A stretch of 64,000 nt of DNA. It comes from Terriglobia bacterium (GTDB lineage Bacteria; Acidobacteriota; Terriglobia; Bryobacterales; Bryobacteraceae). The notes under the pieces were generated by a model. The model searched no databases and was not told the DNA's origin. It saw only the letters and a program-made list of their open reading frames with translations. Positions 1,364 to 35,894 of the stretch are shown here, piece after piece. The translations under genes were made by a program, and so were the position numbers. Location of the stretch: NCBI GenBank assembly GCA_020073345.1, contig JAIQFI010000003.1:1-64000 (forward strand). Reading direction: 5' to 3'. Within the stretch, counting starts at the first letter, position 1. The number at the start of each line of letters is the position of its first letter.

Positions 1364-1372
1364 GGTTATATA

Positions 1373-5112: not shown

Positions 5113-5119
5113 TTCGACA

Positions 5120-6743: not shown

Positions 6744-6764
6744 CGCAACGAGCGCTTGTGATCC

Positions 6765-7796: not shown

Positions 7797-7816
7797 AAGT
7801 CCTCCTGACAAATAGT

Positions 7817-7981: not shown

Positions 7982-8034
7982 ATGATCTCCCAGGGGCAAT
8001 CATATCCTACCCACTCGAACTTCGCCGTTGTCTA

Positions 8035-8094
8035 TCAGAACGTAATGCGCGTACCCAGCTCGATCTGACGGCGTTTACCCTTCCGGCGGAGACA
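8035..8094 (-). pseudogene. Second in-frame C-terminal beta-strand behind the Oar-like receptor stop
   Basis: Directly after the TGA of the receptor gene the same frame continues for 19 codons and ends in RRQIELGTRITF followed by TGA. This has the hallmarks of an outer-membrane barrel C-terminus (alternating polar/hydrophobic residues, terminal Phe), parallel to the receptor's own ending AQFAVRYTF. The two ends also share 10 bases of DNA around the stop. It is probably the leftover tail of a former tandem receptor, or an old C-terminal extension cut off by a stop mutation. Confidence 0.45.
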
Positions 8095-11064
8095 TCAGAA
8101 CGTGTACCGCACGGCAAACTGCGCCTGAATCGGCGAACTGACGCTCGCTCCTCCGATATTCAAGCTTCCGTCCGGCAGACGGAAAGTCGCAAATGCCGCA
8201 GCCGGCGTCTGACCCGTTCCCCAAATCGATCCCTTCGCGGTAGTCGTCGATTCGTTGCTGGACACCGAAAAGAAGTGATTCTCGTGATTGAATGCGTTGA
8301 ACAAATCGACCATCAACTCTACTTGGTGTGTTTCTGCAATGCGGAAGGTCTTGGTGATGCGCAGGTCGGTGTTCCAGAAGTTGGGCTGGCGGAAGCTGTT
8401 GCGCTCCAGCAAGGCACCATTGATAATCGGCCGGTCGGTGAAATTTCCGTCTTTGTTGGAATCCGAATTGGTATAGGCCGAAAACGGCAATCCGGTACGC
8501 CAGGTCATGATTCCGGAGATCTGGAAGCCGAGCGGCAGATCGTACAGCGCGGACGCAATCAAACGCCTGCGGATGTCGTCACGGGACCATGAGTACTCCT
8601 GCTGAAAGTTGAAGGCATCCTGGTAAGTGATACCCGAGAAATTGCGCTCGTTGCTGTCGTCATCGTGATTCCACGAAAGCGTTCCGTTAATCTGAAACTG
8701 GAGGCGGCGGCTCAAGCGCTGAGTGAACGCCAGCGTCAAGCCGTCATAGTTCGAGCGCGCCGAGCTTTCTTGCGAAAGTAGCTTCCCGAAATTCGCGTTC
8801 GGACGGCTGGCTGTGTTAAAAATCGGTCGCTGTTGCGGTGGCACACCAGTGTCATTGCCGACCACCGGCTGGAACAAGTTGGTATCCCGAATGCGCTCCA
8901 GATGAACCGTGTTGGAGTGCACAAAATCCAAGGAAACCGACATCGCGTGGGTTAGCTCGCGCTCCAAGCCCAACGTATAGTTCACACTGCGAGGATTCCG
9001 AAAGTCTGGCGCGAAGAACGATGCATCCGGCTTCAGACCAGCCACGCCCGAGTTCGAGAAGAAGACGGAATCGGCGGCATTATTGGTGTTGGGCACAAAG
9101 GGATACACGAACTCGGGATGAACCTTCTGTACCGCTGCAATCTGAGTCGCGTTCAACGTGAAACTCACGCCTACGTTCGGATTGCCGGTTGAGTTAAACA
9201 CCTGATTGAGCAGCAGGGCAGGCGTTCCGGCATAGAAGATTCCCGTGGCGGCGCGGAATACAGTTTTATTGTCACCGGTGAGGTCGATCGCCAAGCCAAT
9301 CCGGGGCTGGAACTCCTTGGTGTCTGATGGGATCTGCGCTGAAAGCGGCAGGGCCGGATTCGGACGCGGTGGCGTCGGCATGATGGATGCTTCATACCGG
9401 AGGCCCCCGGACAGTGTCACGCGACGGTTGATCTTCCACGAATCCTGAACGAAAACCGCGGGGTTGTTTACCACGGCATCGAAATTGCCGTCGCCGTAAA
9501 AGATCCGGAACTGGTCGGGAACCGCGTTCTGTTTTTTGTTTAGGACGTCAAGGAAAGTCGAGAGATTGTTGAAGATGTAAACGCCGCGCCAGTTGCCGCG
9601 GAAAATCTCACTGGTGTGGTAGCGGTTGACGTCGACCCCGAACTTGACCGCGTGCCCGCCGTGAATCCATGTGGCGGCGTCGCTAAATTGCAGGGACTTG
9701 GAGGTTACGGGAATCGGCAGGAAGGAAACTCCCCCGAAGAAGCAGCAGCCGCTGACCTGAGTCTGCGGTCCGGCCAGATTCACAAAGTCCGATCCTTCCC
9801 CATTATTCACGCGAGGCCTGTCCTCCACGCGGTCCTGGAAGCGGAGTTCATTGAGGAATACCGGCGAGAATACGGAGGTGAGAGTGGCGACGCCGCCTTT
9901 GTTGAAATCCTGCTCCGTTCCGTTATTCAAGAGAACGCCGCTCTGCACGCCGGTGAACGTTCCGTTCAGAGCATCATTGCCGCTCTGGTTGTAGCGCAAC
10001 GTCAGGCGGTGCTTGTCGGTGATCTGATAGTCGCTCTTTATTAGGAACGTGTTGATGTTATTGGTGGACTGAAACACCCCTTGCTGATCGAGGTAGCTTT
10101 GGGGCAGCCCGGCGGTGGTATTGAAACGGATGGTGAGCGGCGCATGCTCGCGCTGCCCGTCGTAGACCCCGAAGAAGAACAACTTGTCCTTGACAATCGG
10201 TCCACCCAGGGCGCCACCATATTGATTGCGGAAATCCGTGACGCGGTCGCCGAAGATGGTCTTCGGCGAGATATTTGCGAGCCGAAGGTAGTCAAACGCC
10301 TCGCCATGGAACTCATTCGAGCCGGACTTGGTGATGACATTCACCGAACCGCCCGTGGCCCGGCCGTATTCCGGATCGAAGGTGCCTCTCACCACCTGGA
10401 ACTGGCTGACGGCCGCTTGGCTTACCACGAAGGCCGATCCCGAACGTTCGCCGCCCGCCTGGCCTCCGAAAAAGGGCTCATTAAAGTTCGCTCCATCAAT
10501 ATTGATCGCCGAGTTGATTCCGCGGCTGCCGGCGAAGCTGATCTGGCCGCGTTCCGGCTCCACCATGACACCGGGAGTCAACTGCGCAAGATCCAGGAAT
10601 CGGCGGCCGTTGATCGGCAGGCTGGCCACCGACCTGCTGTCGACCAGCGCCGCGGTTTGCGAACTGCTGGTTTCCACAACCGGGGCCGCGCTTTCCACGG
10701 TCACTGTTTCAGCAGCCGCCGATACGCGCAGCGAAATATTCGCCGTGATGGTTTGACCCAGCGTGAGTGTGTACCCTTTGTTGATAGTGGTGGCAAAGCC
10801 TGGCGCCGATGCCGTGACCTCATAGTCCCCAACCCCCAGCAACGGCACCAAGAACCGTCCTTCGCCATCGGACACGACGCTACGCTCGTTGCCGGTATTC
10901 TCACTCTTCACGACGACCTTCGCGTTGGGAATGGCAGCTCCCGAGGGATCCTGAACCGTTCCCTGGATCGTACCGGTCGTGGCTTGAGACTGAGCCAAAA
11001 GAACTCCCGCCAAGAAGGCGAAAAGTAAAGCTAAAGCCAGTCCGCGCTTCGGCTTTGTGGTCAT
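8095..11064 (-). CDS. TonB-dependent-receptor-like outer-membrane protein (Oar family)
   Basis: A 989-residue outer-membrane protein of the carboxypeptidase-regulatory/TonB type abundant in Acidobacteriota. Order of parts: signal peptide (MTTKPKRGLALALLFAFLAG), carboxypeptidase-regulatory Ig-like domain about residues 28-115 (TGTIQGTVQDPSGAAIPNAKV), plug domain about 130-260 (SVASLPINGRRFLDLAQLTPG), then a long beta-barrel ending in RYTF. Presumed role: uptake of large polymers or glycans across the outer membrane. AAGGAGG lies 4 bases before the ATG at 11064, which overlaps the stop of an upstream small ORF in an ATGA arrangement. Confidence 0.9.
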   Translation of the reverse strand: MTTKPKRGLALALLFAFLAGVLLAQSQATTGTIQGTVQDPSGAAIPNAKVVVKSENTGNERSVVSDGEGRFLVPLLGVGDYEVTASAPGFATTINKGYTLTLGQTITANISLRVSAAAETVTVESAAPVVETSSSQTAALVDSRSVASLPINGRRFLDLAQLTPGVMVEPERGQISFAGSRGINSAINIDGANFNEPFFGGQAGGERSGSAFVVSQAAVSQFQVVRGTFDPEYGRATGGSVNVITKSGSNEFHGEAFDYLRLANISPKTIFGDRVTDFRNQYGGALGGPIVKDKLFFFGVYDGQREHAPLTIRFNTTAGLPQSYLDQQGVFQSTNNINTFLIKSDYQITDKHRLTLRYNQSGNDALNGTFTGVQSGVLLNNGTEQDFNKGGVATLTSVFSPVFLNELRFQDRVEDRPRVNNGEGSDFVNLAGPQTQVSGCCFFGGVSFLPIPVTSKSLQFSDAATWIHGGHAVKFGVDVNRYHTSEIFRGNWRGVYIFNNLSTFLDVLNKKQNAVPDQFRIFYGDGNFDAVVNNPAVFVQDSWKINRRVTLSGGLRYEASIMPTPPRPNPALPLSAQIPSDTKEFQPRIGLAIDLTGDNKTVFRAATGIFYAGTPALLLNQVFNSTGNPNVGVSFTLNATQIAAVQKVHPEFVYPFVPNTNNAADSVFFSNSGVAGLKPDASFFAPDFRNPRSVNYTLGLERELTHAMSVSLDFVHSNTVHLERIRDTNLFQPVVGNDTGVPPQQRPIFNTASRPNANFGKLLSQESSARSNYDGLTLAFTQRLSRRLQFQINGTLSWNHDDDSNERNFSGITYQDAFNFQQEYSWSRDDIRRRLIASALYDLPLGFQISGIMTWRTGLPFSAYTNSDSNKDGNFTDRPIINGALLERNSFRQPNFWNTDLRITKTFRIAETHQVELMVDLFNAFNHENHFFSVSSNESTTTAKGSIWGTGQTPAAAFATFRLPDGSLNIGGASVSSPIQAQFAVRYTF

Positions 11065-11201
11065 GCAGCCTCCTTACCCAAATTCACAACTGACGTGGAC
11101 AGACCGCCGACGGTTGATGTACCGTACGCCGCTTGGCCAAGCAGCGATGCACTCGCTGCGAAAACCAACGCACAAAGACGGAGAAGCCAAGCTTTTCTCA
11201 T
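11061..11201 (-). CDS. Small secreted ORF coupled to the receptor gene
   Basis: A 46-codon frame starting MRKAWLLRLCALVFAASASLLG, a convincing signal peptide, followed by only about 20 residues. Its stop codon overlaps the receptor ATG (ATGA), and the receptor's AAGGAGG site lies inside its last codons, so translation of the two is likely linked. It may be a leader peptide controlling receptor translation or a trimmed remnant of another secreted protein. No homologue is recognised. Confidence 0.4.
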   Translation of the reverse strand: MRKAWLLRLCALVFAASASLLGQAAYGTSTVGGLSTSVVNLGKEAA

Positions 11202-11369
11202 AAGTTTTCTGACCTCTTTGGACTGAGAAGATGCGAGAACCTTGAACGTTAAAAATACCAGAATCAATGTTTCAAAGGAATGAAAATGTTGTAAACACTG
11301 CAAGGTGCGGGCGCTGGAGCGTAACTTAAGCCTCATCAATGAGATAGCAGGAGCATACTCGAGTCCGCC

Positions 11370-11659
11370 TTAGGAATCGATGGAAGCAATAACACTGCAG
11401 TTCCGACCGCTTGCTTTCGCTTGATACAACGCCCGGTCGGCTAACCGGTGAGTTCCGCGGTGGAGGTCACTCCTGGCTGAATGAGGGCAGCTCCCACGCT
11501 CACCGTAACAGTCTGCTCGCCACTGGATAGATCGAAGGCCTGATCCGAGATGGCGCCCCGCAAACGCTCCGCGGCGGCCTTCAGGGTCGCCGCATTCGCG
11601 TTCTCGACCACGAACTCCTCCCCTCCGTAGGAGGAGCGGACCAGATGCCCACCTTCTCG
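11370..11659 (-). pseudogene. GGDEF (diguanylate cyclase) C-terminal remnant with frameshift
   Basis: Reading the minus strand just after the cupin stop gives HLVRSSYGGEEFVVENAN, the second half of a GGDEF domain including the active-site GGEEF, then AAERLRGAIS and TVTVSVGAAL. The frame stops near 11452, but the next frame continues with ADRALYQAKASGRNC, the family's last helix. So the piece lacks its N-terminal half and carries one frameshift. It is a dead fragment butted against the cupin gene. The 170 bases between it and the next upstream-facing ORF show nothing recognisable. Confidence 0.8.
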
Positions 11660-12046
11660 CTAGCGATGTGGGTGTGCCGGCACGCCGAGCCGGTTTACCG
11701 TGTCGCCTTCGAAATCGAACTCGATCAGCACGGCGGGTTCGTCGCCCACGACCCATCCTTGATGACCGGGTTCGACGGCGACGAACTGGGGCGCCTTGTA
11801 TTCGATCACACATCCATCGGCAAACCGCACGTTGATTTGGCCTTGCGCCATGAATCCTACGTGGGCATGCATGCACAAATCCGTTCCGACCACGGTTTTC
11901 AGATGGGCGTTCCAATTGAATCCAGGCGGGTAGATCATGCGCTTCACCCTGACGTTCCCGGCCCTCGCGATATCGACCAGAACACCGCCCACTTCGCGAT
12001 GCTCGTCGGCTTTCATCGGGCCAAGGAGCGGATTGGTTGTGCTCAT
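11660..12046 (-). CDS. Cupin-domain protein
   Basis: A 128-residue single-domain cupin: KRMIYPPGFNWNAHLKTVVGTDLCMHAHVGFMAQGQINVRFADG forms the first cupin motif (with HAH as metal ligands), and PQFVAVEPGHQGWVVGDEPAVLIEF the second. GGAGGAAG precedes the ATG at 12046, and a small inverted repeat CTCCA-N5-TGGAG lies at 12067-12081 upstream. Function unassigned; such small cupins bind metals and may be sugar-modifying enzymes or regulators. It stands alone between a pseudogene and a tRNA fragment. Confidence 0.8.
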   Translation of the reverse strand: MSTTNPLLGPMKADEHREVGGVLVDIARAGNVRVKRMIYPPGFNWNAHLKTVVGTDLCMHAHVGFMAQGQINVRFADGCVIEYKAPQFVAVEPGHQGWVVGDEPAVLIEFDFEGDTVNRLGVPAHPHR

Positions 12047-12127
12047 GGTTGCTTCCTCCAGACATTCTCCAGACTATGGAGAGCATAGGGCATCTTGGGG
12101 GGCGGACACAATGTGGCGATTCAGGAA

Positions 12128-12156
12128 GGCGTCACCAGGGGGATTCGAACCCCCGT
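12128..12156 (-). repeat. Copy of the tRNA-Glu 3' end (putative att site)
   Basis: 29 bases match the acceptor/T-arm end of the intact tRNA-Glu at 13264-13292 with a single mismatch, in the same orientation. Weaker similarity continues into the anticodon stem up to about 12163. There is no 5' half, so it is not a tRNA. It lies on the 3' side of the tRNA, the position where the far end of an element integrated in a tRNA 3' end is expected. Confidence 0.75.
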
Positions 12157-12171
12157 CCGCCGGAGCCGCCT

Positions 12172-12699
12172 ATGATGGAGTCTATGGAACCGCTTGCAGG
12201 CGCGCACTTGCTCACTGATTCATTGATTGAGTCGGTAGTTGAGAAGGCTAAGCACTCCCCGAGGCTTCGGATGAACTACAACTTCCATACGGGCCCCGAA
12301 GACAACCCGCATCGCTTTCTCAATGTCTTGGCCTACGGCACATATGTGATGCCCCACCGTCACAAGAATCCCCCGAAGGCGGAGTCCTTCATCGTGTTGG
12401 ACGGCTACGTAGCCGTCTTTCTCTTCAAGGATGACGGAACTCTAGGCAACACTCTCATCCTGGGCTCGGGACCTCTTCCTGAAAAGCTTCCCGCCACCGC
12501 CGCTGGAAAGCCAGTGGCCCGCGGTATCGACCTCGCTCCAGGCATTTGGCATAGCATCACCGCCTTGACCCCCCACGCTGTCTGCTACGAAGTGAAGCCT
12601 GGCCCTTGGGACCCGGTCACCGACAAGGAATTTGCTCCCTGGGCACCATCGGAGGGAAGCGCAACAGCTTCAGAGTATCTCGGCAACCTCCTTCGTTGA
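12172..12699 (+). CDS. WbuC-family cupin-fold metalloprotein
   Basis: About 175 residues. Core features are LRMNYNFHTGPEDNPHRFLNVL, YVMPHRHKNPPKAESFIVLDG (metal-binding H-x-H and Glu of the cupin) and GIDLAPGIWHSITALTPHAVCYEVKPGP, matching the WbuC group found in O-antigen clusters. I start it at ATG 12172 (GGAG 7 bases upstream); the longer frame from 12037 runs through the tRNA remnant and is artefactual. It lies inside the block bounded by tRNA-Glu repeats and looks somewhat less GC-rich than its surroundings, consistent with acquisition. Substrate unknown. Confidence 0.8.
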   Translation: MMESMEPLAGAHLLTDSLIESVVEKAKHSPRLRMNYNFHTGPEDNPHRFLNVLAYGTYVMPHRHKNPPKAESFIVLDGYVAVFLFKDDGTLGNTLILGSGPLPEKLPATAAGKPVARGIDLAPGIWHSITALTPHAVCYEVKPGPWDPVTDKEFAPWAPSEGSATASEYLGNLLR

Positions 12700-12791
12700 C
12701 CTTGCGCCAAGGCCAATGAGTCCAGTTCACTAGAAGTCCCTCCCTATCTCCTGCGCGCAATACCTAGTATGCTCGCCTTGAGGAGAATCGC

Positions 12792-13247
12792 ATGCTGTTC
12801 CAACGATTACTCGTGGTTCTGTTGAGTGCATCAGGCATCTGGGCGGCAGATGCCAGCATAGGAACCTGGAAGCTCAACGTCGCCAAATCCACGTTCAGAC
12901 CCGGCCCCCCACCTGTAACTGAGACGCGGACATACAAAGCGCAGCCTAAGGGAGTGCAGACCACAGTAAAGACAACTTGGGCCGATAGGTTGTCCACAAC
13001 TGTCGAATACCCAGCAAACTACGATGGCAAGGATTATCCAGTCGATGGATCTCGTGAAGTTGACGTAGTAGTACTTACGCGGATTGACGACTTCACCTCC
13101 GCAGCAACCCTGAAGCACTTTGGCAAGGAGATTGGCGTAGCCCGCCGCGTGGTCTCACCAGATGGGAAGACCATGACGATCAGCTATAAGGGCATCAACA
13201 CGAGAGGCGACCAAGTTGATAACGTGGCGGTCTACGACAGACGCTAA
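12792..13247 (+). CDS. Small secreted beta-rich protein, conserved-hypothetical type
   Basis: 151 residues with signal peptide (MLFQRLLVVLLSASGIWA) and mature start ADASIGTWKLNVAKSTFRPGPPP, a module recurrent in Acidobacteriota secretomes and resembling small lipocalin-like folds. It ends ISYKGINTRGDQVDNVAVYDRR. GAGGAG sits 6 bases before the ATG. Second cargo gene between the tRNA-Glu repeats. No catalytic motif recognised. Confidence 0.75.
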   Translation: MLFQRLLVVLLSASGIWAADASIGTWKLNVAKSTFRPGPPPVTETRTYKAQPKGVQTTVKTTWADRLSTTVEYPANYDGKDYPVDGSREVDVVVLTRIDDFTSAATLKHFGKEIGVARRVVSPDGKTMTISYKGINTRGDQVDNVAVYDRR

Positions 13248-13265
13248 CTACTCGATTTGGTTTGG

Positions 13266-13340
13266 CGTCCCCAGGGGGATTCGAACCCCCGTTACCGCCG
13301 TGAAAGGGCGATGTCCTAGGCCGGGCTAGACGATGGGGAC
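13266..13340 (-). tRNA. tRNA-Glu (anticodon TTC)
   Basis: A complete cloverleaf on the minus strand: acceptor GTCCCCA pairs with TGGGGAC, D-arm TCGTCTAGCCCGG, anticodon loop CTTTCAC with TTC, and T-arm GGGGGTTCGAATCCCCC. The discriminator is G, and CCA is encoded at 13265-13263. Its 3' end is duplicated at 12128-12156. Confidence 0.96.
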
Positions 13341-13368: not shown

Positions 13369-13686
13369 TTACAGGCTCTTCAGATATGCGACGATGTCGT
13401 CTTTCTCCGCCTTGGTGAGCGCGTCGGCGAACGGAGGCATTCCGTTTCCACCTTCGTTGATCATGGTCGTCACGTTGGCGTCGTTCACAGCCTTGCCGTT
13501 GGCGAGCTTGTCGTGCTTGAACAAGCCCTTCAGTCCGGGGCCCACTTTCTGATCTGTACTATCCGCATTGTGGCAGACCGAGCAGTTATCGTCGAAGTTG
13601 GATTTACCCTTCTTGGCATCGGCCGCAAAAGCCTGCGCTGCCATCAGGAGTCCCATGGCACCCACTGCAGTTAGTGACGTCTTCAT
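13369..13686 (-). CDS. Small c-type cytochrome
   Basis: 105 residues: signal peptide (MKTSLTAVGAMGLLMAAQAFA), heme site CSVCH at 35-39, and a distal-Met region EGGNGMPPFADALTKAEKDDIVAYLKSL, i.e. a mono-heme class I cytochrome c of the periplasm. The true ATG is 13686; longer frames are read-through of the divergent gene. Start codons of this gene and of the peroxiredoxin are 25 bases apart, so the promoters are shared or overlapping. Confidence 0.9.
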   Translation of the reverse strand: MKTSLTAVGAMGLLMAAQAFAADAKKGKSNFDDNCSVCHNADSTDQKVGPGLKGLFKHDKLANGKAVNDANVTTMINEGGNGMPPFADALTKAEKDDIVAYLKSL

Positions 13687-13711
13687 GCTTTCTAGTTTAC
13701 AATCTCGGCAT

Positions 13712-14158
13712 ATGAGTCTCCAAGCAGGCGATCGCGCCCCCGAAATTAAGGGCGGTTCCTTCCAGCTCTCCAAGCTCAAGGGTAAGACAGTGGTTGTGTT
13801 CTTCTTTCCCAAGGCCGACACGCCCGGGTGCACCAAGGAATCGTGCGAATTCCGCGATTCCGCGAAGAAATTCGCCAAGAAGAATGCCGAGATCGTGGGC
13901 CTCTCGCCGGACAAGCCCGAAGCCCAGGCCAAGTTCGCCGAGAAGTACGGTCTTCCCTATACCTTCGTCCCCGATCCCGACCATAAGATCGCGGAAGCCT
14001 ATGGCGTGTGGAAGGAAAAGAGCATGTATGGGCGGAAGTACATGGGTATCGAGCGCACGACTTTCGTGATCGACCCGCAGGGGAAGATCGCCACGGTGTT
14101 CGAGAAGGTGAAGGTCGCCGGGCACGCGGAAGCCGTGCTGGAATCGTTGGCTACGTAA
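13712..14158 (+). CDS. bcp: Thiol peroxidase, Bcp/PrxQ type peroxiredoxin
   Basis: 148 residues reducing hydroperoxides with thioredoxin. The peroxidatic motif PGCTKESC contains Cys40 and the resolving Cys45 five residues on, diagnostic for Bcp/PrxQ. FFPKADTP and the C-terminal Arg (GIERTTFVIDPQGKI) complete the active site. Start ATG 13712. Divergent from the cytochrome c gene; convergent with the SLC13 transporter. Confidence 0.93.
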   Translation: MSLQAGDRAPEIKGGSFQLSKLKGKTVVVFFFPKADTPGCTKESCEFRDSAKKFAKKNAEIVGLSPDKPEAQAKFAEKYGLPYTFVPDPDHKIAEAYGVWKEKSMYGRKYMGIERTTFVIDPQGKIATVFEKVKVAGHAEAVLESLAT

Positions 14159-26910: not shown

Positions 26911-26937
26911 ATGGCGGAGAGACGGGATTCGAACCCT
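26911..26937 (-). repeat. Copy 1 of the tRNA-Ser 3' end (putative att site)
   Basis: 27 bases match the CCA/acceptor/T-arm end of tRNA-Ser at 35804 onward, with one single-base deletion, in the same orientation; includes GGGATTCGAACCC. The left-most copy of four; it abuts the promoter of the efflux operon and so marks the left boundary of the accretion zone. Confidence 0.75.
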
Positions 26938-27047
26938 ATCTTAGATCCACGTTCTTATTTCAACGAGATGCACGGTATACGGAAACTCTGATATCTTGTG
27001 GATCGGTCCTTGGAGTTAATTGTTCCGCCGAATGAGGCGCCCATGCT

Positions 27048-29771
27048 ATGAACTCCGATGAATGGAGCATCACAGACGGTACGGGGCAACAACGAAGAGC
27101 CTCGGGTACGCTGATTGGCTCCTATCGCCTTGAATCTCAGCTAGGCGAGGGCGGCATGGGCACGGTGTACCGCGCGCTGGATACGAAGCTGAACCGGCCC
27201 GTCGCGATCAAGTTTCTCTCGGACGATTTGGCCGATGTGGCAGCGCGTCGTCGGTTCCAGCGCGAGGCCCAGCTGGTCTCTTCATTGAACCATCCGCATA
27301 TTCTCACGGTCCACGATGTAGGGGAATTCGAAGGACGCCAATACCTGGTAACGGAATATGTCGACGGCGGGACGCTGAAGGATTGGGCGCAGCGTGAAAA
27401 GCGCGAGTGGCGGGATGTAGTTGAACTACTGGTGGGCGTCGCCGACGGCTTGGCGGCCGCGCATGATGCCGGGATTCTGCATCGCGACATCAAGCCCACC
27501 AATATTCTGATCACCAAGAGCGGCTATGCCAAGCTGTCGGATTTCGGTTTGGCGAAGCTGGCGGAACAGCCAGCTCGCGAGGACGGGTCGACGCGAACCC
27601 TAACCGACGAGCTCACCCGGAGGGGCGCAGTAGTCGGAACCATCGCGTACATGTCGCCCGAGCAGGCCTCAGGGAAAGCTTTGGACGCCCGCAGCGACGT
27701 TTTTTCGTTCGCTGTGGTGCTGTATCAGATGCTAACCGGCCGGCGGCCGTTCGAGGGTGCGACCGATTTGGAGACTCTACAGACGATCATCCACGGCTCG
27801 CTCCGGCCGCTGGGAGACGAGATCCCGGCGGGGGTTCGCGCCCTGGTGGAAAAGGCGTTGGTGAAGGACCCCGCTCAACGCTATCAGTCGATGCGCGAAA
27901 TGGTGACGGACCTGCGCCGCTTGCTGCGCCAAGACGCGGAGACGTCAGCGGAGCGCGCTCCCGCGTCCCCGCCGCATCCCGCGCAGCGATTCAAGTGGGC
28001 CGCGGCCGGGGCACTCATTGTGTTGGCGCTGGCTGTCGGCATCGGGTTCGCCGTGCTCCGATCGAAACCGGCCGCGCAGCTGGGGGCCGCGCAGTATACC
28101 CAGCTCACCAATTTCGATTCGGCGCTCGATCCCGCGCTCTCCCCGGACGGCCGCATGCTGGCTTTCGTCCGCGGCGTGGGGATCGGAGTCCAATCCACGG
28201 GCGATCCTACCGAGATTTACGTGAAGCTTCTGCCGGATGGAGATCCGGTGCAACTTACGCATGACGGCCTGCCCTACAAGGGCCGCCCGCGATTCTCACC
28301 CGACGGCGCACGCATTGCGTACTCGACCCTCGAAACCTCTGGTTTCAACACTTATGTGGTTCCCGTACTGGGAGGGCAGGAGCCGCGCCGCCTTCTCACC
28401 AACGGCATGGGCCTTAACTGGATCGATGAGAAGGACATCCTCTTTTCCTATATGACGGGCAAGGGAGTCACGATGGCCGTCGCGACTTCCACCGAGAGCC
28501 GCTCCAATGAGCGCACTGTGTTTGTTCAGGACGGCTACATGGATCATTACTCGTATCTGTCGCCGGACAGCAAGCAGCTTCTGCTGGCAGAAATGGGACC
28601 TACTAACTTGACGTGGGAGGCCTGCCGGGTGGCGCCGTTTGATGGTAGTTCGAAAGGCAGGAAGGTTGGCCCCGAGCCGGCACAATGTGTGAGCGCGGCC
28701 TGGTCTCCCGATGGGAAGTGGATGTATTTCTCCGCTGATACGGGCAGCGGGTTTCATATCTGGCGCCAGCGCTTCCCGGACGGAAAGCCGGAGCAGCTTA
28801 CCTCCGGCACTACGGAGGAAGAGGGGGTGTACGTCGCCCCCGACGGCCGCTCCCTGCTCTCATCCATCGGAACATTCCAGAACAAGATCTGGGTTCACGA
28901 CTCGCGCGGCGACCGGCAGGTTACTTCGGAGTCCTACAGCTTGCTTCCGACGTTTTCCGCCGACGGCACGAAATTGTATTACATCGCACGCACCGGCGGC
29001 GGGCTCCTGGCCGCATACGGCGGCCTGTGGCTGCTGGATGTGGAATCGGGACAACGCCAGCGGCTCCTCCCTGAGTTTCAGATGTGGCAGTACAGCATTT
29101 CTCGCGACGGAAAGCGCGTCGTCTTCGCCGCTCCGAAAGAAACGGGACGTCAGGGAGTCTGGCTGGCGGCGCTGGACGGCAGCTCAGCCCCACGCCAGTT
29201 CACGTCCGGTTTCAGCTCTTCAGCTTTCTTCAGTGCGGACGGCGACGTGTTTTATTCGACCATTGACAAGGACGCCAGAGACCTGGGTTCCGTGTATCGC
29301 GTGAAGGAAGACGGTAGCGAGTTACGAAAGGCGATTCCACAACCCGTGTATGTTCTCAACGGTGTTTCCCCGGACGGAAACAATTTAGCCGTCTCGGTAC
29401 CGGCTTCCACCATGGAAACTGGCAGTGGCGCGACGGAGTTGATTCCCTTGGATGGTGGTTCTCCCACGACGATATGTATCTGCGGCAACCGCGGTCCCGA
29501 CGCTCCACAGCCGGTGAGCTGGTCGCCAGATGGAAAACTGTTCTACATAAGTTTGGTGGGAGGGCAGACTGTCTATTCAGTTCCACTGCGCCCGGGCGAG
29601 GTTCTCCCGCCGCTTCCACCCGAAGGGATTCACTCGGCTGAGGAAGCGGCCAAGTTGCCGGGAGCGAAACTGCTCCCCGCTCCCGGAGAGTTTCCCGGAC
29701 CCGACCCGTCGGTCTACGCGTTCCCGAAATTTACATCTCAGCGCAACATCTATCGGGTTCCCGTGCCGTAG
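27048..29771 (+). CDS. Serine/threonine protein kinase with extracytoplasmic PD40 propeller (module 1 cargo)
   Basis: 907 residues. Cytoplasmic Hanks-type kinase at about 24-290: glycine loop LGEGGMGTVY (32-41), Lys55, HRDIKPTN with catalytic Asp147, DFG 165-167 and SPEQ. One membrane helix at about 317-337, then roughly 550 residues of WD40-like PD40/TolB-type repeats (LSPDGRMLAFVRG, FSPDGARIAYS, WSPDGKWMYFS). It likely senses an outside ligand and phosphorylates cytoplasmic targets. It is the sole gene between tRNA-Ser repeat copies 1 and 2, transcribed opposite to its neighbours. Confidence 0.9.
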   Translation: MNSDEWSITDGTGQQRRASGTLIGSYRLESQLGEGGMGTVYRALDTKLNRPVAIKFLSDDLADVAARRRFQREAQLVSSLNHPHILTVHDVGEFEGRQYLVTEYVDGGTLKDWAQREKREWRDVVELLVGVADGLAAAHDAGILHRDIKPTNILITKSGYAKLSDFGLAKLAEQPAREDGSTRTLTDELTRRGAVVGTIAYMSPEQASGKALDARSDVFSFAVVLYQMLTGRRPFEGATDLETLQTIIHGSLRPLGDEIPAGVRALVEKALVKDPAQRYQSMREMVTDLRRLLRQDAETSAERAPASPPHPAQRFKWAAAGALIVLALAVGIGFAVLRSKPAAQLGAAQYTQLTNFDSALDPALSPDGRMLAFVRGVGIGVQSTGDPTEIYVKLLPDGDPVQLTHDGLPYKGRPRFSPDGARIAYSTLETSGFNTYVVPVLGGQEPRRLLTNGMGLNWIDEKDILFSYMTGKGVTMAVATSTESRSNERTVFVQDGYMDHYSYLSPDSKQLLLAEMGPTNLTWEACRVAPFDGSSKGRKVGPEPAQCVSAAWSPDGKWMYFSADTGSGFHIWRQRFPDGKPEQLTSGTTEEEGVYVAPDGRSLLSSIGTFQNKIWVHDSRGDRQVTSESYSLLPTFSADGTKLYYIARTGGGLLAAYGGLWLLDVESGQRQRLLPEFQMWQYSISRDGKRVVFAAPKETGRQGVWLAALDGSSAPRQFTSGFSSSAFFSADGDVFYSTIDKDARDLGSVYRVKEDGSELRKAIPQPVYVLNGVSPDGNNLAVSVPASTMETGSGATELIPLDGGSPTTICICGNRGPDAPQPVSWSPDGKLFYISLVGGQTVYSVPLRPGEVLPPLPPEGIHSAEEAAKLPGAKLLPAPGEFPGPDPSVYAFPKFTSQRNIYRVPVP

Positions 29772-29842
29772 CCACCATAGGCGTACCCGTGTCAGGTCCC
29801 CAATCGACACCAGAAGTCAGCAAATACTGGATAAGAAAACGG

Positions 29843-29859
29843 TGGCGGAGAGACAGGGA
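29843..29859 (-). repeat. Copy 2 of the tRNA-Ser 3' end (putative att site)
   Basis: 17 bases are identical to the tRNA-Ser 3' terminus (TGGCGGAGAGACAGGGA), then a 3-base gap and GAACC again match. Same orientation as the tRNA. It separates the kinase module from the arsenic operon. A nearby segment at 29788-29811 (GTGTCAGGTCCCCAATCGAC region) loosely resembles, in reverse, the 34679 repeat. Confidence 0.65.
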
Positions 29860-29901
29860 GAACCGGCGACGCGGGGATTAGGCAGCCCCAGGTCGAGGGA
29901 T

Positions 29902-30360
29902 CTACTGGCCCCGCTTTTTGCTGTCATAAGTGCCTTCACCCAAAAACACCATTACGCGCGAATGGATTCGATCGCGCAATCGTCGGAAGGCGTGGAGACG
30001 TTCTTTGCCGACCTCGATGAAACTAGCTGGGTCTTCGAATGGCCAGTGGAGCCATTTCGTTTCCCCGGAGAAAACTGGACACTCTTCGCGCGCCTTGTCA
30101 CAAACAGTAATTATGAAATCGAATTGCTGCCCTTGAAACTCCGCTATCGGCTTGGACCGCTGCGTGGAGATGTCGACGCTGATCTCACGCATGACCGTCA
30201 CAGCTTCCGGACGGACAGCAGCCGGATGGGTGCCCGCCGAGAAGACCTCGTAAAAGTCACCAGCCTCGTGCCGAAGCAAGGCCTCGGCCATCTGACTCCG
30301 GGCCGAGTTGCCGGTGCAAATGATCAGCACTCGTTTCTTCTTCACAAGAGACTCTTTCAC
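29902..30360 (-). CDS. arsC: Arsenate reductase, LMW phosphatase type (second copy)
   Basis: 152 residues reducing arsenate to arsenite. The P-loop CTGNSAR (C15-R21) is the C-x5-R oxyanion site; further cysteines at 87 and 94 (VCDKAREECPVFSG) could form the redox relay of thioredoxin-coupled enzymes; catalytic acid Asp110 sits in HWPFEDPASF. Last gene of the ars operon, 9 bases after arsJ. It differs clearly from the first ArsC (separate lineage, not a recent duplicate). Confidence 0.88.
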   Translation of the reverse strand: MKESLVKKKRVLIICTGNSARSQMAEALLRHEAGDFYEVFSAGTHPAAVRPEAVTVMREISVDISTQRSKPIAEFQGQQFDFIITVCDKAREECPVFSGETKWLHWPFEDPASFIEVGKERLHAFRRLRDRIHSRVMVFLGEGTYDSKKRGQ

Positions 30361-30369
30361 GACGAGCGC

Positions 30370-31611
30370 TTATTCGCTGCTCCCGACGTGCGCGGATGCG
30401 AGCGATACGGCGCGCCCGCGGGGTAAGCTGAGCGACAAAACAGCCGCCGTGAGTACGAGTACAGCGGACCCCCAAAGACATCCTTGAAACCCGGCAAACT
30501 GGAATACAACGCCAGACAAAAGCGTTCCGAGAAGACGCCCGCAAGCGTTCGCCATGTAGTAGAACCCGACATTCAGCGCGACGCTATCCTCGTCGGTGTA
30601 GGCCAGTACCAGATAGGAATGGACCGCCGAGTTGATGGCGAAAACCGCTGCGAAGACGGCGAGGCCCACTATGAGTGCGACACCAGGATTGACACCGAGT
30701 CGCAGCGCGCCCGCCAAACCGATCGGCGCGAGAAGCAGCACGAACGCCCACCGGCAGGCAGCGGTGCCGTCAACCGTGCCTCCCTTGCCGAATACTCGGA
30801 GAATCTCCGGTACTCCCGCCTGGATGAAGCCGTAGCCAATGACCCAAAGCGCTAAGAACGCTCCAACCGCATAAAAGGACCATCCCAGTTGACTTAGGAA
30901 CACCGGCAGACCGACGACGAACCAGACATCCCGGGCCGCGAACAAGAACAGGCGTGCGGCGGAAAGCCAATTGATCTCGGAACTCTTTGAGAGGATCGAC
31001 GAGAATTTGACTTTCTTTTTGGAGCGTCCCAAGTCACCAGAGAGAGAAGCTGCGGTAGCAAGGAGTACCACAACCAGTGCACCAGCCATTCCAACCAAAG
31101 CGCCAACGAACCCGAATGCCGCGAGCAACGCCCCGCCGACGAAAAAGCCCACGCCTTTGAGCGCGTTCTTGGAACCCGTCAGACGCGCGACCCATTTGAA
31201 TAGTGTGCCGTCAGCACCGTCAGGCACGATGACCTTGATGGCACTCTTGGCGCTCATCTTGGTCAAGTCCTTCGCAATGCCGGACAGCGCCTGTGCCGCC
31301 ATCACGTAGGCCACCGAAACGATCTCGGGCCACTGCTGGTTAAGGAGCGCAAGCATGAGGAGCGCGATGATCTGCAACACGAGCCCGCCGTAGAGTGTGA
31401 CCTTCACGCCCGAGCGTGCCGCGATCCATCCGCCAAAGAGATTCGTTACGATCCCAAAGAACTCATAGAACAGGAAGAGGAACGCGATCGAAATGCTGTC
31501 GTAGCCAAGTTGGTAGAAGTGCAGGACAACCAGCATCCGGAGTGCGCCGTCGGTGATGGTGAAACCCCAATAGGCTCCCGTAACCAACGCGTAACTGCGA
31601 ATTCTGTTCAT
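30370..31611 (-). CDS. arsJ: ArsJ organoarsenical efflux permease (MFS)
   Basis: 413 residues, about 12 helices. The N-terminus YALVTGAYWGFTITDGALRMLVVLHFYQLGY and EFFGIVTNLFGGWIAARSG are the ArsJ fingerprint. Known role of the family: export of 1-arseno-3-phosphoglycerate made by a partner GAPDH, giving arsenate resistance without reduction. The partner gene ends 14 bases upstream, as in described arsJ clusters. Confidence 0.92.
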   Translation of the reverse strand: MNRIRSYALVTGAYWGFTITDGALRMLVVLHFYQLGYDSISIAFLFLFYEFFGIVTNLFGGWIAARSGVKVTLYGGLVLQIIALLMLALLNQQWPEIVSVAYVMAAQALSGIAKDLTKMSAKSAIKVIVPDGADGTLFKWVARLTGSKNALKGVGFFVGGALLAAFGFVGALVGMAGALVVVLLATAASLSGDLGRSKKKVKFSSILSKSSEINWLSAARLFLFAARDVWFVVGLPVFLSQLGWSFYAVGAFLALWVIGYGFIQAGVPEILRVFGKGGTVDGTAACRWAFVLLLAPIGLAGALRLGVNPGVALIVGLAVFAAVFAINSAVHSYLVLAYTDEDSVALNVGFYYMANACGRLLGTLLSGVVFQFAGFQGCLWGSAVLVLTAAVLSLSLPRGRAVSLASAHVGSSE

Positions 31612-31625
31612 TCAGAAACGGTAGA

Positions 31626-32663
31626 TCAGGCTGCGGTCGCCCGGCGTGGTAGCTGCGCTGCCACCTTTCGCGCGAGCTCGACCATGCGATTCACGTAGCC
31701 CCATTCGTTGTCGTACCAGGCGAGGATCTTCACTTGGGTTCCGTCGATAACCATCGTGGATGGCGCATCGATAATCGCTGAGTGTGGGTCGTTCAGGAAA
31801 TCGATGGAAACAAGTGGACGTGCCTCATACGCGAGAATGCCGCGAAGGGTTGTCTCGGCGGCCTGCTGGAAGAGCTGGTTCACTTCTGCAACACTGGTGG
31901 TCCTCTCCACCTCGAACACACAATCCGTCAGCGAAGCATTAAGCAGCGGCACGCGGATCGCGACGCCATTGAGTTTGCCTTGCAACTCGGGATAGATCAG
32001 TCCAATGGCGGTCGCAGAACCCGTGGTTGTGGGGATGAGCGACATCAGAGCTGACCGGGCGCGCCGTAGGTCTTTGTGAGGGAGATCGACAATCACCTGC
32101 GTGTTCGTCACGTCGTGCACGGTGGTGATCACGCCGTGTCGAATCCCGATTCCTTCGTGTATAACCTTCACCACAGGAGCCAGACAATTGGTAGTGCACG
32201 ACGCCGCAGTAATAATGTGATGGTCAGCAGGTGAGTAGAGCCCGTCGTTCACGCCCATGACGATGTTCAGCACGCCCTGTTTTACCGGCGCGGCAACGAT
32301 CACTTTACGCACCCCGCGTTCGAAGAACGGCTGGAGCGCGTCAAGCGTCAACAGTTTTCCGGAACACTCCAGCACGATATCGACGTTGCTGCTTTCCCAG
32401 GGAACGTCATTCGGCTTTGACTCAGCGGTGAACTTGATCGAACGCCCTTCGACGGTCAGCTCGTCTTCCACGGCCTTCATCGGCTTTGACCAACGCCCAT
32501 GCACACTATCGAATTCCAACAGATGCGCGGCGGTCGCCGATCCTGCCTTAATTTCATTGATGTGTACCACCCCCACATCGGTGCAATCCCACGCGGCGCG
32601 AAACGCAAGTCGACCCATCCGGCCAAATCCGTTAATTCCAATACGAATCATCTGTTGTGTCAT
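31626..32663 (-). CDS. ArsJ-associated glyceraldehyde-3-phosphate dehydrogenase
   Basis: 345 residues. NAD site [15 protein letters not shown], catalytic [10 protein letters not shown] (Cys156) and [15 protein letters not shown] confirm [30 protein letters not shown] is typical of the arsenic-cluster subclass rather than housekeeping Gap (expected LLKYDSTHG). With arsenate in place of phosphate it makes 1-arseno-3-phosphoglycerate for ArsJ. Two starts are possible (32663 and 32651); AAGGA directly abuts the first. Confidence 0.9.
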
Positions 32664-32721
32664 TCCTTCGGGGATTGTTTTCAGCGTGGAAACAGGAGTC
32701 GTGGGCTCAGGCGTAGGAGCC

Positions 32722-33579
32722 TTAGCTACAGCAGGTCGGACCGCAGCACGCCTCTCGCGAACCGGTGATGGACGACGGTTTTTCAGCGCGGATAAAGGCG
32801 CTTATGAACCTTCCTTCTACTTGCTTACTGATGGCGTCCACGTCGATGCCTTTACCGGAAAGGAAGTGCCGAGCATCGTCTATGCTATAGACTCGCGTCG
32901 GTTCGATCTGGATGGATGCAAAACCCGCTGCAGTCAATTTCTTGACGTAGTCCGTTTCTTCGAGGGCGCCCGCAATGCACCCGACCCACAATTCCATGTT
33001 ATGGCGAATTTGCTCCGGGACATCGCCGCGTACGACCACATCGGAAACCGCCAGGCGGCCTCCCGGCTTGAGCACACGCAACGCCTCACGGAACACGCTG
33101 TCTTTGTCCGCAGAAAGGTTGATCACACAGTTTGAAATAATGACGTCGACGGAGTTATCCGGAAGCGGGATGTGTTCGATGTCGCCCTTGAGAAACGCCA
33201 CATTCTGCACCCCAGCCTTGCGCTGGTTTTCCCGTGCAAGCGTCAACATTTCATCGGTCATATCCAAACCGTACGCCTTGCCCGTCGGCCCGACGCGCTT
33301 CGCCGACAGCAACACGTCGATACCGCCGCCAGAACCAAGATCAAGCACGGTTTCGCCGGACTTCAACTGAGCCAGGGCCGTGGGATTCCCGCACCCGAGA
33401 GACGCAAGGACGGCCTCTGCCGGAATCTCAGTTGTTTGGCTCGCGTCATAGAGTCGGGATGTGATCGGATCGACGCTCCCGAGTGAGCTTGGGGACGAGC
33501 CGCAGCAGGAACTGCCGCCGGATTGGGCGCGGAGCGCCGCCGCACCGTATTTCTCTCGAACTGTTTCCTTTACGTCCAT
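32722..33579 (-). CDS. arsM: Arsenite S-adenosylmethionine methyltransferase
   Basis: 285 residues from ATG 33579. SAM motif [15 protein letters not shown] (78-91). The three conserved arsenite-binding cysteines are in place: C63 (LGCGNP), C151 (SNCVINLS) and C201 ([10 protein letters not shown]). An additional N-terminal CC (25-26) and C-terminal cysteine clusters (ACCGPTCC) may help bind As(III). It converts arsenite to methylated, volatile arsenic. It overlaps the arsC stop by 10 bases. Confidence 0.93.
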
Positions 33580-34031
33580 GCTGATTTCCCTTTCCCTGAC
33601 TTGGTGTGATGGTGTTCTTTCACAAACTCGCCGACGTGACGGCGAATCGCATCGCGAGCATGGCGCACTGCGACGCCATGATCGATACCCTCTGTTTCCA
33701 ACGCGAGCGGGCTTTCGATCGACCATTTCTGTCGCCAGATGGCGCCAGGGAACACTGGGCACGCCCCTTCCTGGTCCCGATCGCACAGCGTGATGACGTA
33801 GTGAAAGCGTTGGCGGAGGTATGGATCAACCACCTTGGTTTGGGCCGAGGAGATGTCGATGCCGACCTCCCGCATCGCACTTACCGCTTCCGGGTCCAAG
33901 CGACCGGCTTTTGCTCCGGCGCTCACGATCTCAATCTCATCGCCAACCAACTCGCGAAGAAATGCCTCCGCCATCTGAGTACGGCAGGAGTTCTCCGTGC
34001 AGAGAAACAAGACTTTCGGTCTAATCGCCAT
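33570..34031 (-). CDS. arsC: Arsenate reductase, LMW phosphatase/thioredoxin type (first copy)
   Basis: 153 residues. P-loop CTENSCR (C11-R17, with C16 inside it) plus C83 and C91 (LCDRDQEGACPVFPG) match the thioredoxin-coupled class. Oddity: where the general-acid Asp-Pro is expected (as EDPAS in the second copy) this protein has SIESPLAL, so the Asp appears replaced by Ser. Second gene of the operon, 12 bases after arsR. Confidence 0.85.
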   Translation of the reverse strand: MAIRPKVLFLCTENSCRTQMAEAFLRELVGDEIEIVSAGAKAGRLDPEAVSAMREVGIDISSAQTKVVDPYLRQRFHYVITLCDRDQEGACPVFPGAIWRQKWSIESPLALETEGIDHGVAVRHARDAIRRHVGEFVKEHHHTKSGKGKSAWT

Positions 34032-34043
34032 CGCTTCGTTCTC

Positions 34044-34406
34044 CTATCTACAAAGTTGCGTGATCTTGGCCGGTTTGATGGCCTTGTTGCGGGTACAGCA
34101 CTCGGCGTACAGAAACCCGAGCAACTCCTCCAGCGCGGTCGTATTTGCGGTGTACCGGAGAAACGTGCTTTCCCGCCGCACCGCAATGAGATCTTCGTGC
34201 TTGAGTTTTTCTAAGTGATGCGACAACGTGGAGGGTGCAATCCCCAACTCATTCTGAATCTCGCCGACTACCAGTCCTTCGGGATGCGCGGCGAGGAGCA
34301 CGCGCAAAATGCGCAAACGCGGCTCCGCCCCCAGAGCGGCAAACATATCCGCATAAGTTGCCGTCCGGTCGGTTTCGGGCGCAAGTTGCAATCGTGACGG
34401 TTCCAT
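34044..34406 (-). CDS. arsR: ArsR-family arsenic-responsive repressor
   Basis: 120 residues: winged helix PRLRILRVLLAAHPEGLVVGEIQNELGIAPSTLSHHLEKLKHEDLIAVRR. Candidate As(III) ligands are Cys103-Cys104 and Cys119 near the C-terminus, an arrangement like the Acidithiobacillus-type ArsR rather than the classical CVC helix. First gene of the operon; ATG 34406 coincides with the predicted transcription start, so its mRNA may be leaderless. An internal Met at residue 21 is the alternative start. Confidence 0.88.
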   Translation of the reverse strand: MEPSRLQLAPETDRTATYADMFAALGAEPRLRILRVLLAAHPEGLVVGEIQNELGIAPSTLSHHLEKLKHEDLIAVRRESTFLRYTANTTALEELLGFLYAECCTRNKAIKPAKITQLCR

Positions 34407-34408
34407 AG

Positions 34409-34440
34409 TTCCAGCATACTGGAAGTATCAAATCAGTCAA
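34409..34440 (-). promoter_or_regulatory. ars operon promoter and ArsR operator
   Basis: Minus strand: TTGACT (34440-34435), 16-base spacer, TATGCT (34418-34413). The perfect inverted repeat TTCCAG-TATG-CTGGAA (34424-34409) spans the -10 box, the expected place for ArsR blocking. The start codon of arsR begins 6 bases after the -10. The 140 bases further upstream, to 34581, hold nothing I recognise. Confidence 0.7.
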
Positions 34441-34581
34441 GCGATTTGCGAAACGTTTCCAAGATTCGCGTACGGATACGCGGTGATGCTGGTCCTCTCG
34501 AACCAGCCCTTGGGTTCTGCTGGCACCGCTTAGAGAGGGGTTAAATAGACACCAAGGCTTGTAACTGATTGATTCTAAAGC

Positions 34582-34603
34582 ATGGCGGAGAGACAGGGAT
34601 TCG
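34582..34603 (-). repeat. Copy 3 of the tRNA-Ser 3' end (putative att site)
   Basis: 22 bases identical to the tRNA-Ser 3' end (35804-35825), including GGCGGAGAGACAGGGATTCG, same orientation. It is preceded by TTGATTCTAAAG; a similar TTGATTCTAAAA occurs 60 bases further on. It separates the arsenic operon from module 3. Confidence 0.78.
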
Positions 34604-34678
34604 GAGCTATGCCGCCCGCTGATTCCGCGTAAGTTATTGATTCTAAAATACGCAGCATACTCCCAATAATCAGCTTCG

Positions 34679-34712
34679 CGGGTTTCTTGGTACAAAATCG
34701 GGGACAGGTCAC
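34679..34712 (+). repeat. Direct repeat A inside module 3
   Basis: 34 bases containing GGTTTCTTGGTACAAAATCG match 35728-35759 with two 1-base gaps and two substitutions. Together the pair lies just inside both tRNA-Ser repeat ends of module 3, so it may be a subterminal element, for example a recombination-accessory site. Confidence 0.6.
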
Positions 34713-34855
34713 CAGTGGATCTCGCCGCGAACGATGGCAACGAGAAGGTAGATGAAACCGATCAATCCTGCGATCTCCAGGAGGAGAAGTTTTATGGAAA
34801 GGATCGCGTGATGAACTTGGCGGATGGATATCCCTCGGCGGTGGCTTGTCTGCAC
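34709..34855 (-). CDS. Possible 48-residue single-helix membrane peptide
   Basis: From GTG 34855 (GGAG 6 bases upstream) a short frame gives a basic N-terminus and then LLLLEIAGLIGFIYLLVAIV, a convincing membrane helix, ending GEIHW. It runs opposite to the hypothetical gene at 34811, and only one of the two may be real. No family recognised. Confidence 0.3.
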   Translation of the reverse strand: MQTSHRRGISIRQVHHAILSIKLLLLEIAGLIGFIYLLVAIVRGEIHW

Positions 34856-35113
34856 GAAAAACTCCGTGATCCCGGGGGAGAGGACTCCATCGTATCACAA
34901 AGAGTGGTGGAAATGTTTTTTCGTGATATTCTGGTGCCGGTGGTCACGCCGGAACTCATCGCCGCAATCCAGGTGTTCGGTGCGACGCTCTCGTTCGTGA
35001 GCATCTGCCTCGGCCTGACGAAGACGCTCGTTGACGTGGGCGTTTTTAAAAAAGCTCTGCCCGTGCTAAAGTCAGCACACCCCCATTCCTTCACCCTTTT
35101 TAAAAAACTCTAA
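34811..35113 (+). CDS. Hypothetical protein, module 3
   Basis: 100 residues from ATG 34811 with AAGGA 7 bases upstream. A 5-codon frame with a strong GGAGGAG site (ATG 34794) ends TGATG on this start, suggesting coupled initiation. The sequence has one hydrophobic segment (PELIAAIQVFGATLSFVSICLG). No family recognised. The frame extends upstream to 34715 without support. A long hairpin follows the stop immediately. Confidence 0.4.
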   Translation: MNLADGYPSAVACLHEKLRDPGGEDSIVSQRVVEMFFRDILVPVVTPELIAAIQVFGATLSFVSICLGLTKTLVDVGVFKKALPVLKSAHPHSFTLFKKL

Positions 35114-35114
35114 A

Positions 35115-35153
35115 AAATGTGAGCGTTTGCTCTCAGAGCAAAGGGTCACATTT
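35115..35153. terminator. Long interrupted inverted repeat, probable terminator
   Basis: AAATGTGA-GCG-TTTGCTCT-C-AGAGCAAA-GGG-TCACATTT: two perfect 8-bp stems separated by a 3/3 internal loop with a 1-base apex, so effectively a 39-base near-palindrome. It starts two bases after the stop of the 34811 gene and lies in AT-rich DNA. It could end transcription from either side; the symmetry also allows a protein-binding site. Confidence 0.55.
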
Positions 35154-35187
35154 CATTTCGATCGGAAGATAACCACCATCGAAGAGA

Positions 35188-35649
35188 ATGGGGCGGCGTT
35201 GTTGCTTCCATTCATTTTGGTCCCTCGCAATAGTGGGCGACAATAGGCTTGACTCATCATTCAGCGACTGCCATCATGAACCCTACAGGACATGGAGCCT
35301 GTGGGAAATGCTTCAATGCGCGGCCGGTAACTTTATTGACGCTGGGCGGAGACTGAATGAGCTAGAGGGGCGATTCGCCTTCGTGCGGCCAGAGCGTCGC
35401 GATGACGTGATGGAACCCAATGAGCTCCATCCATTTGATGGGGCGTTTGGGCATCTGCGCGGTCTTTGTCGCTACCTTTCCCTTCCCGTAACATCTTTAG
35501 TGGTAGCCGAGATCGATGATCTGGTGGATCGGGCAAAACACATAGGTTTAGAGACCATCACCTGGGGCCAGCTTTTCGACCTAGTAAAATACTGCATAAA
35601 TCAGCAACTTACGCATGTTGCGCTGGATGATCTTAATTTGAACCCATGA
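35188..35649 (+). CDS. Hypothetical protein, module 3
   Basis: Up to 153 residues; the C-terminal 110 (from Met 35308) look like a genuine small acidic helical protein (FIDAGRRLNELEGRFAFVRPERRDDVMEPNELHPF; ITWGQLFDLVKYCINQQLTHVALDDLN). No signal peptide or known motif. Codon usage and AT content differ from the core genes around it, fitting acquired DNA. Start uncertain. Confidence 0.5.
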   Translation: MGRRCCFHSFWSLAIVGDNRLDSSFSDCHHEPYRTWSLWEMLQCAAGNFIDAGRRLNELEGRFAFVRPERRDDVMEPNELHPFDGAFGHLRGLCRYLSLPVTSLVVAEIDDLVDRAKHIGLETITWGQLFDLVKYCINQQLTHVALDDLNLNP

Positions 35650-35727
35650 GGGTGGGAGTCTGTGAAGAGTGGATATGCTGCGCCGAAAACAGCGTTTTGC
35701 AAGGTGCTGAAATTAAATAACTTAGAC

Positions 35728-35759
35728 CGGGTTTCTTGTACAAAATCGTGTACAGTCAC
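35728..35759 (+). repeat. Direct repeat B inside module 3
   Basis: Partner of 34679-34712; lies 45 bases before the tRNA-Ser CCA end. It is followed by a small perfect hairpin CGACTGCGAAGTCG (35761-35774). Confidence 0.6.
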
Positions 35760-35807
35760 ACGACTGCGAAGTCGCTAACTTGTTGAGCTACAAGGAGTTA
35801 TTTATGG

Positions 35808-35894
35808 CGGAGAGACAGGGATTCGAACCCTGGTTAGAGTTTCCCCTAAACACGCTTTCCAAGCGTGCGCCTTCAGCCACTCGGCCATCTCTCC
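35808..35894 (-). tRNA. tRNA-Ser (anticodon GGA)
   Basis: Minus-strand class II tRNA: acceptor GGAGAGA/TCTCTCC, D-arm TGGCCGAGTGGCTGAAGGC, anticodon stem-loop GCACGCTTGGAAAGCGTG with GGA, long variable arm TTTAGGGGAAACTCTAA, and T-arm CAGGGTTCGAATCCCTG. Discriminator G, and CCA is encoded (35807-35805). Its 3' end is the source of the repeats at 34582, 29843 and 26911. Confidence 0.97.

Follow-up and report, generated by a model that had tools for sequence, protein, structure and literature searches.

Elements that have lost their genes for integration and transfer but have kept both attachment sites, attL and attR, are described as cis-mobilizable elements (CIMEs) (PMC5704250), and fragments of tRNA genes are an expected trace of integration (PMC9897764). 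Additive flexible genomic islands are reported at the tRNA genes of Alteromonas and of Candidatus Methylopumilus, the islands of the latter ranging from 330 bp to 42 kb, with repeats that correspond to the last 20 nt of tRNA-Lys (PMC4119200, PMC10872708). Tycheposons span 4 to 200 kb and have a tyrosine recombinase (PMC10872708), and 6.7 kb beside a tRNA-Thr gene of Haloquadratum walsbyi have been read as what is left of a provirus or of an integrative plasmid (PMC3119063). Integrase genes are described as numerous in Candidatus Solibacter usitatus, along with candidate islands that have tRNA genes (PMC3174227). Our literature search, by titles and the beginnings of abstracts and mainly in open-access sources, found no description of integrase-free tRNA mini-islands in Acidobacteriota.

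Here, we analyzed a 64,000-nt stretch of DNA from a Terriglobia bacterium (the window), in which a 1.1-kb segment lies between an intact tRNA-Glu gene and a partial copy of its 3' end. We consider this distal copy to be, probably, the eroded attR of a tyrosine-integrase element that has decayed to a CIME-like relic. Short segments of similar design were found at other tRNA genes of the same genome.

The tRNA-Glu gene and its distal copy

A sequence-only reading of the window had described a 29-base direct repeat of the tRNA-Glu 3' end with one mismatch, in a geometry typical of tRNA-integrated elements. The repeat was confirmed, and the geometry fits such elements. Positions 12128-12156 agree with 13264-13292 at 28 of 29 nt and in the same orientation, and the intact tRNA stands at one end of the segment with the same-strand 3' remnant at the other (Table 1). 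The best match in 60 first-order simulations of window positions 1-13262 was 21/29, and elsewhere in the window itself it was 20 on the plus strand and 18 on the minus strand. When a 2-nt gap is allowed (BLAST within the whole genome), the match extends at 92% over the full remnant and repeated part listed in Table 1, covering 37 nt of the tRNA and reaching the anticodon stem. An exact 20-mer core occurs in the genome only at tRNA-Glu and at the remnant, a third place having 2 mismatches. A tmRNA origin of the distal copy was considered and rejected; the Rfam match at 12137-12182 is subthreshold (19.3 bits, against a gathering score of 47), and tRNA-Glu explains the sequence better.

Table 1. 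Features of the tRNA-Glu locus and of the tRNA-Ser zone, in window positions
Feature	Position	Strand	Basis or remark
Distal flank gene, 128 aa (11660 gene)	11660..12046	-	No family match
Distal remnant of tRNA-Glu 3' end, probable eroded attR	12128..12162	-	
WbuC-family cupin	12172..12699	+	TIGR04366 E=5.2e-38; Pfam DUF6016 E=1.5e-10
151-aa ORF, signal-peptide-like start (by eye)	12792..13247	+	Adjoins tRNA-Glu in G020 too
Repeated 3' part of tRNA-Glu	13264..13300	-	29-nt near-exact core at 13264-13292
Intact tRNA-Glu(TTC), apparent integration target	13263..13340	-	ARAGORN; Rfam tRNA 56.1 bits
c-type cytochrome	13369..13692	-	Conserved 5' of tRNA-Glu
Peroxiredoxin (Bcp/PrxQ type)	13715..14158	+	Conserved 5' of tRNA-Glu
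tRNA-Ser 3'-side zone	about 26912..35804		
Second tRNA-Ser unit, 4.7 kb	about 29843..34583		Arsenic cluster
tRNA-Ser(GGA)	35805..35894	-	Three same-strand copies downstream

Only two ORFs lie between the copies, the WbuC cupin and the 151-aa ORF. The latter found no match in Pfam or NCBIfam, and its product looks like a secreted protein, judged by eye from the N terminus. In comparison with the sister genome G020, third codon positions hold 66 of the 100 differences in WbuC and 38 of the 51 in the 151-aa protein, so that both genes look maintained. No integrase trace was detected in the 1.1-kb segment when four integrases of the genus were used as queries in tblastn and in unfiltered hmmsearch, a test that could miss divergent fragments. 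The GC content of the segment (0.558) is below that of the window (0.606), but the cytochrome and peroxiredoxin genes next to it have much the same value (0.566). Beyond the remnant, positions 11370-11660 appear by eye to hold a disrupted diguanylate-cyclase gene end, adjoining the 11660 gene.

Composite make-up of the segment

In G020, the order from tRNA-Glu is the secreted-protein gene, a glyoxalase-family gene, and the homologue of the 11660 gene at 1.7 kb from the tRNA; a tRNA remnant was looked for at this locus and was not found. WbuC of G020 lies on another contig, away from tRNA-Glu, the first 10 kb of which have little else in common with the window's genome. Homology of WbuC between the two genomes sets in near the start codon, which in the window is 9 nt away from the remnant. 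The secreted-protein gene probably held the same place before the two lineages split. Since this gene occupies a shared place and WbuC different places in the two genomes, the 1.1-kb segment is, on gene order, composite.

The sequence-only reading had treated the 1.1 kb as one mini-island, and this is the part of it that found no support as worded. Its own refuting observation, a conserved gene order without the repeat, was made by half, since G020 keeps that order for the secreted-protein gene and not for WbuC. Nor is a single island borne out by the integrase search, by the GC content of the segment, or by the relatives examined, none of which joins tRNA-Glu directly to the distal gene.

The tRNA-Glu locus in related genomes

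tRNA-Glu was present in 22 of the 23 genus genomes searched, and clear 3' partial copies of it were found in 5 of these 22 (the window's genome, G001, G005, G011, and G022), leaving out weaker matches (79-86%, or 18-25 nt) that are likely other tRNAs. The pairing of copy and gene is only presumed in G001 and G022, where they lie on different contigs. The tRNA-Glu of G005 borders an integrase-bearing 8.3-kb element that ends in a perfect 47-nt copy and has genes for a tyrosine integrase, a resolvase, an AAA_25 ATPase, and a DnaG-type zinc ribbon; in G001, among the Pfam matches listed, an integrase gene directly adjoins tRNA-Glu. Integrase-bearing elements do, then, use this tRNA in relatives, and the window's genome itself has at least 27 Pfam integrase matches. 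The 5' side of the gene is conserved, with the peroxiredoxin at 14/14 and the cytochrome at 13/14 loci of relatives. The 3' side is not; 24 flanks were compared, from 22 genomes of the genus and two further ones, some of these flanks being short (down to about 155 nt), and similarity was seen in 6 pairs only, so that the content varies from relative to relative. On this comparative evidence, tRNA-Glu is an integration site in the genus.

A 2.4-kb segment at tRNA-Glu of G011 (L045, 6540-9007) encodes an AbiP2-type defense reverse transcriptase (PADLOC E=1.6e-154) and is framed by 141-nt repeats of 98.6% identity, which run on for about 90 nt past the tRNA. A simple attL/attR pair fails to account for such repeats, and their reach beyond the tRNA hints at tandem insertion. 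G018 was rejected as another case and was not counted, since its 98-nt repeat beside tRNA-Glu is a duplicated gene end.

Two short sequences recur near these loci. In G001, G003, G005, G009, and G022 (loci L067, L054, L044, L053, and L056, respectively), a paired GGTGACG...GGTGACG motif or variants of it follow tRNA-Glu after 48-49 nt on the downstream side; in G011 the distance is about 2.2 kb. An AGCAAAA-like sequence was noticed by eye next to the distal copy of G001, G005, G011, and G022. Both are possible candidates for integrase arm sites. The AGCAAAA-like sequence is absent beside the window's remnant. We draw nothing from the paired motif, as it is absent from the window and as no element genes were recognized by eye beside it in the stretch read in G003 and G009.

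Other tRNA genes of the genome

Rfam gave 48 tRNA matches in the window's genome, of which one, a tRNA-Cys remnant, was dropped, leaving 47. Up to 20 kb downstream of each was scanned for a copy of the gene's own 3' end (3 of 48 flanks were shorter than 3 kb); a 12-nt match at tRNA-Glu(CTC) on contig C26 (E=0.008) was dropped. Same-strand copies were found at 7/47 genes and opposite-strand copies at 0/47, which both bears out and widens the earlier suggestion that tRNA 3'-end capture had occurred at more than one tRNA. The first segments measure about 2.1 kb at tRNA-Met (45-nt repeat, 97.8%), 2.2 kb at tRNA-Arg(ACG), 0.6 kb at tRNA-Thr(TGT), 2.1 kb at tRNA-Cys (66-nt perfect repeat), 14.5 kb at tRNA-Pro(GGG), 1.2 kb at tRNA-Ser(GGA), and 1.1 kb at tRNA-Glu, which has one distal copy. 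Six of the seven are thus 0.6-2.2 kb long, and in none of these six was an integrase trace detectable with the four queries (tblastn and unfiltered hmmsearch). Across 14 segments, these queries matched only the G005 element and a 19-kb segment of G020. No shared ends or genes were found when the segments were compared. The tRNA-Cys segments of the window's genome (2.1 kb) and of G018 (2.8 kb) have similar ends and an unshared interior.

Downstream of tRNA-Ser, same-strand copies of 21, 17, and 27 nt lie at about 1.2, 6.0, and 8.9 kb. The second unit of this zone holds an arsenic cluster with NCBIfam matches to an arsenite methyltransferase, an ArsJ-associated GAPDH, and ArsJ, together with ArsR- and ArsC-like ORFs recognized by eye. 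As a cross-control, the 3' ends of other tRNAs were matched to the flanks, giving 33 matches in 2,256 same-strand pairs and 15 on the opposite strand; some of the same-strand matches were real neighboring tRNA genes, and many were of 14-21 nt. In view of these matches, the 17- and 21-nt tRNA-Ser copies and a 21-nt tRNA-His copy in G020 are less secure than the longer ones.

At tRNA-Thr, G020 looks like a probable empty site: an alignment of the window genome's distal flank with G020 (74% over 223 nt) runs through the 3' half of the intact tRNA-Thr there and continues into the adjoining flank. A caution is that G020 contains, 1.6 kb beyond, another match to the distal gene. The insertion in the window's genome then looks to be about 0.6 kb, with one helix-turn-helix gene. 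A weaker alignment of this kind with G020, over 74 nt, was found at tRNA-Arg. On contig C19, tRNA-Gly (3393) and tRNA-Thr (6009) lie 2.5 kb apart, and the matching pair in G020 lies 25 nt apart, which suggests a possible further insertion between the two.

In G020, 2/46 tRNA genes have same-strand 3' copies, read by eye as those of tRNA-His (2.2 kb) and tRNA-Ala (19 kb), and in the complete genome G178, from the same family, there were none at 25 tRNAs examined out of 46. Pooled, the counts are 9/118 same-strand versus 0/118 opposite-strand (p=0.003); the counts of 7/47, 2/46, and 0/25 do not differ significantly between genomes (p=0.16 and p=0.09, each from a single test).

Origin of the distal copy

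If the distal copy is an eroded attR, an element would have entered the 3' half of tRNA-Glu by means of a tyrosine integrase; the incoming attP would have restored the tRNA, and the original 3' half would have been displaced to the distal end of the insert. An ancestor of the window would have carried such an element, with the integrase and the bulk of the inserted DNA lost later through deletion and gene exchange. The 1.1 kb that remain would be CIME-like, and WbuC, possibly together with the secreted-protein gene, would be a passenger or a later arrival. In support of this origin, we count the near-exact repeat in the same orientation (which the simulations did not approach), the partial copies in 5/22 genomes, the integrases of the G005 element and beside tRNA-Glu in G001, the conserved 5' side with its unconserved 3' side, and the same-strand bias of the copies at the genome's own tRNA genes. 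Against it, we count a segment without integrase trace, the want of a clean empty tRNA-Glu site in the relatives examined, the presence in G020 of the secreted-protein gene at this position with no remnant, the G001 and G022 copies on other contigs than their tRNA, and the window's lack of the AGCAAAA-like sequence.

Two other readings bear on how the copy could have arisen without such a history. Chance similarity, or similarity through the T arm to another tRNA, is hardly credible given the gap between 28/29 and the simulated maximum and given an exact core confined to tRNA-Glu and the remnant, even though the remnant does have matches of 14-18 nt, through the T arm, to the 3' ends of other tRNAs, and the subthreshold tmRNA match overlaps it. 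A local duplication or rearrangement, in which site-specific integration played no part, would suit a composite segment, and the duplicated, non-tRNA gene end in G018 indicates that other rearrangements occur here. We nevertheless regard this as very unlikely; the copy is bounded by the anticodon stem and the tRNA 3' end and has the orientation of an attR, integrase elements insert at tRNA-Glu in relatives, and the copies in the window's own genome are all on the same strand.

Integration could also have been of another kind. A small circle ending in the tRNA-Glu 3' half, natively free of an integrase, might have been inserted by an integrase supplied in trans. Deletion from a larger element would yield the same end state, divergent integrase fragments may escape the four-query test, the segments lack common ends or genes, and neither a circle nor movement in trans has been seen; we therefore consider this origin rather unlikely, despite the recurrence in the same genome of short integrase-free segments with well-kept repeats (tRNA-Cys, tRNA-Met, and tRNA-Thr), the G011 segment with its long repeats, the probable tRNA-Thr empty site in G020, and the plentiful integrase genes. 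Likewise unlikely is a genus-wide extension of the idea, namely, a dispersed system of short integrase-free circles, each with a tRNA 3' half and inserted in trans at many tRNAs. If true, its cargo would include the AbiP2 reverse transcriptase, the arsenic gene cluster, and single regulators, and the Glu segment of the window would be an old member. As a group, the short segments of this genome may be either decayed elements or small cassettes moved in trans, and they offer concrete loci at which such movement can be tested.

Comparison with known systems

Taken together, the Glu scar and the other segments suggest that very short integrase-free tRNA insertions may be common in these soil Acidobacteriota, and that they may go unnoticed wherever an island finder demands an integrase or a minimum size.

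Among the described systems, tycheposons share with the Glu segment the tRNA at the border (PMC10872708), but neither their size range nor the tyrosine recombinase holds for it; the four-integrase search (tblastn and hmmsearch) detected none of the integrases or tyrosine recombinases that tRNA islands and tycheposons have inside. The Haloquadratum case is like ours in its imperfect partial tRNA copy downstream of an intact gene, with no integrase near in the published description (PMC3119063), and differs in being archaeal, longer, and a single case. Additive islands, as described, resemble the present segments in targeting a tRNA, in having its end directly repeated, and in the varying size of their cassettes. 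Here, however, the segments occur at a number of different tRNAs, for the most part singly, and the Glu segment is old and composite; as to the recurring tRNA-end repeats of additive islands, we found one distal copy at tRNA-Glu and three at tRNA-Ser. The closest likeness is to CIMEs (PMC5704250), in that the Glu segment appears to have two att-like ends and to have lost its genes for integration and transfer, although its origin from an ICE or IME is only presumed, 1.1 kb is short, and the distal end is eroded. The scar at tRNA-Glu is thus of a known kind and, taken alone, ordinary; several others, unusually short, accompany it at different tRNA genes of the same genome.
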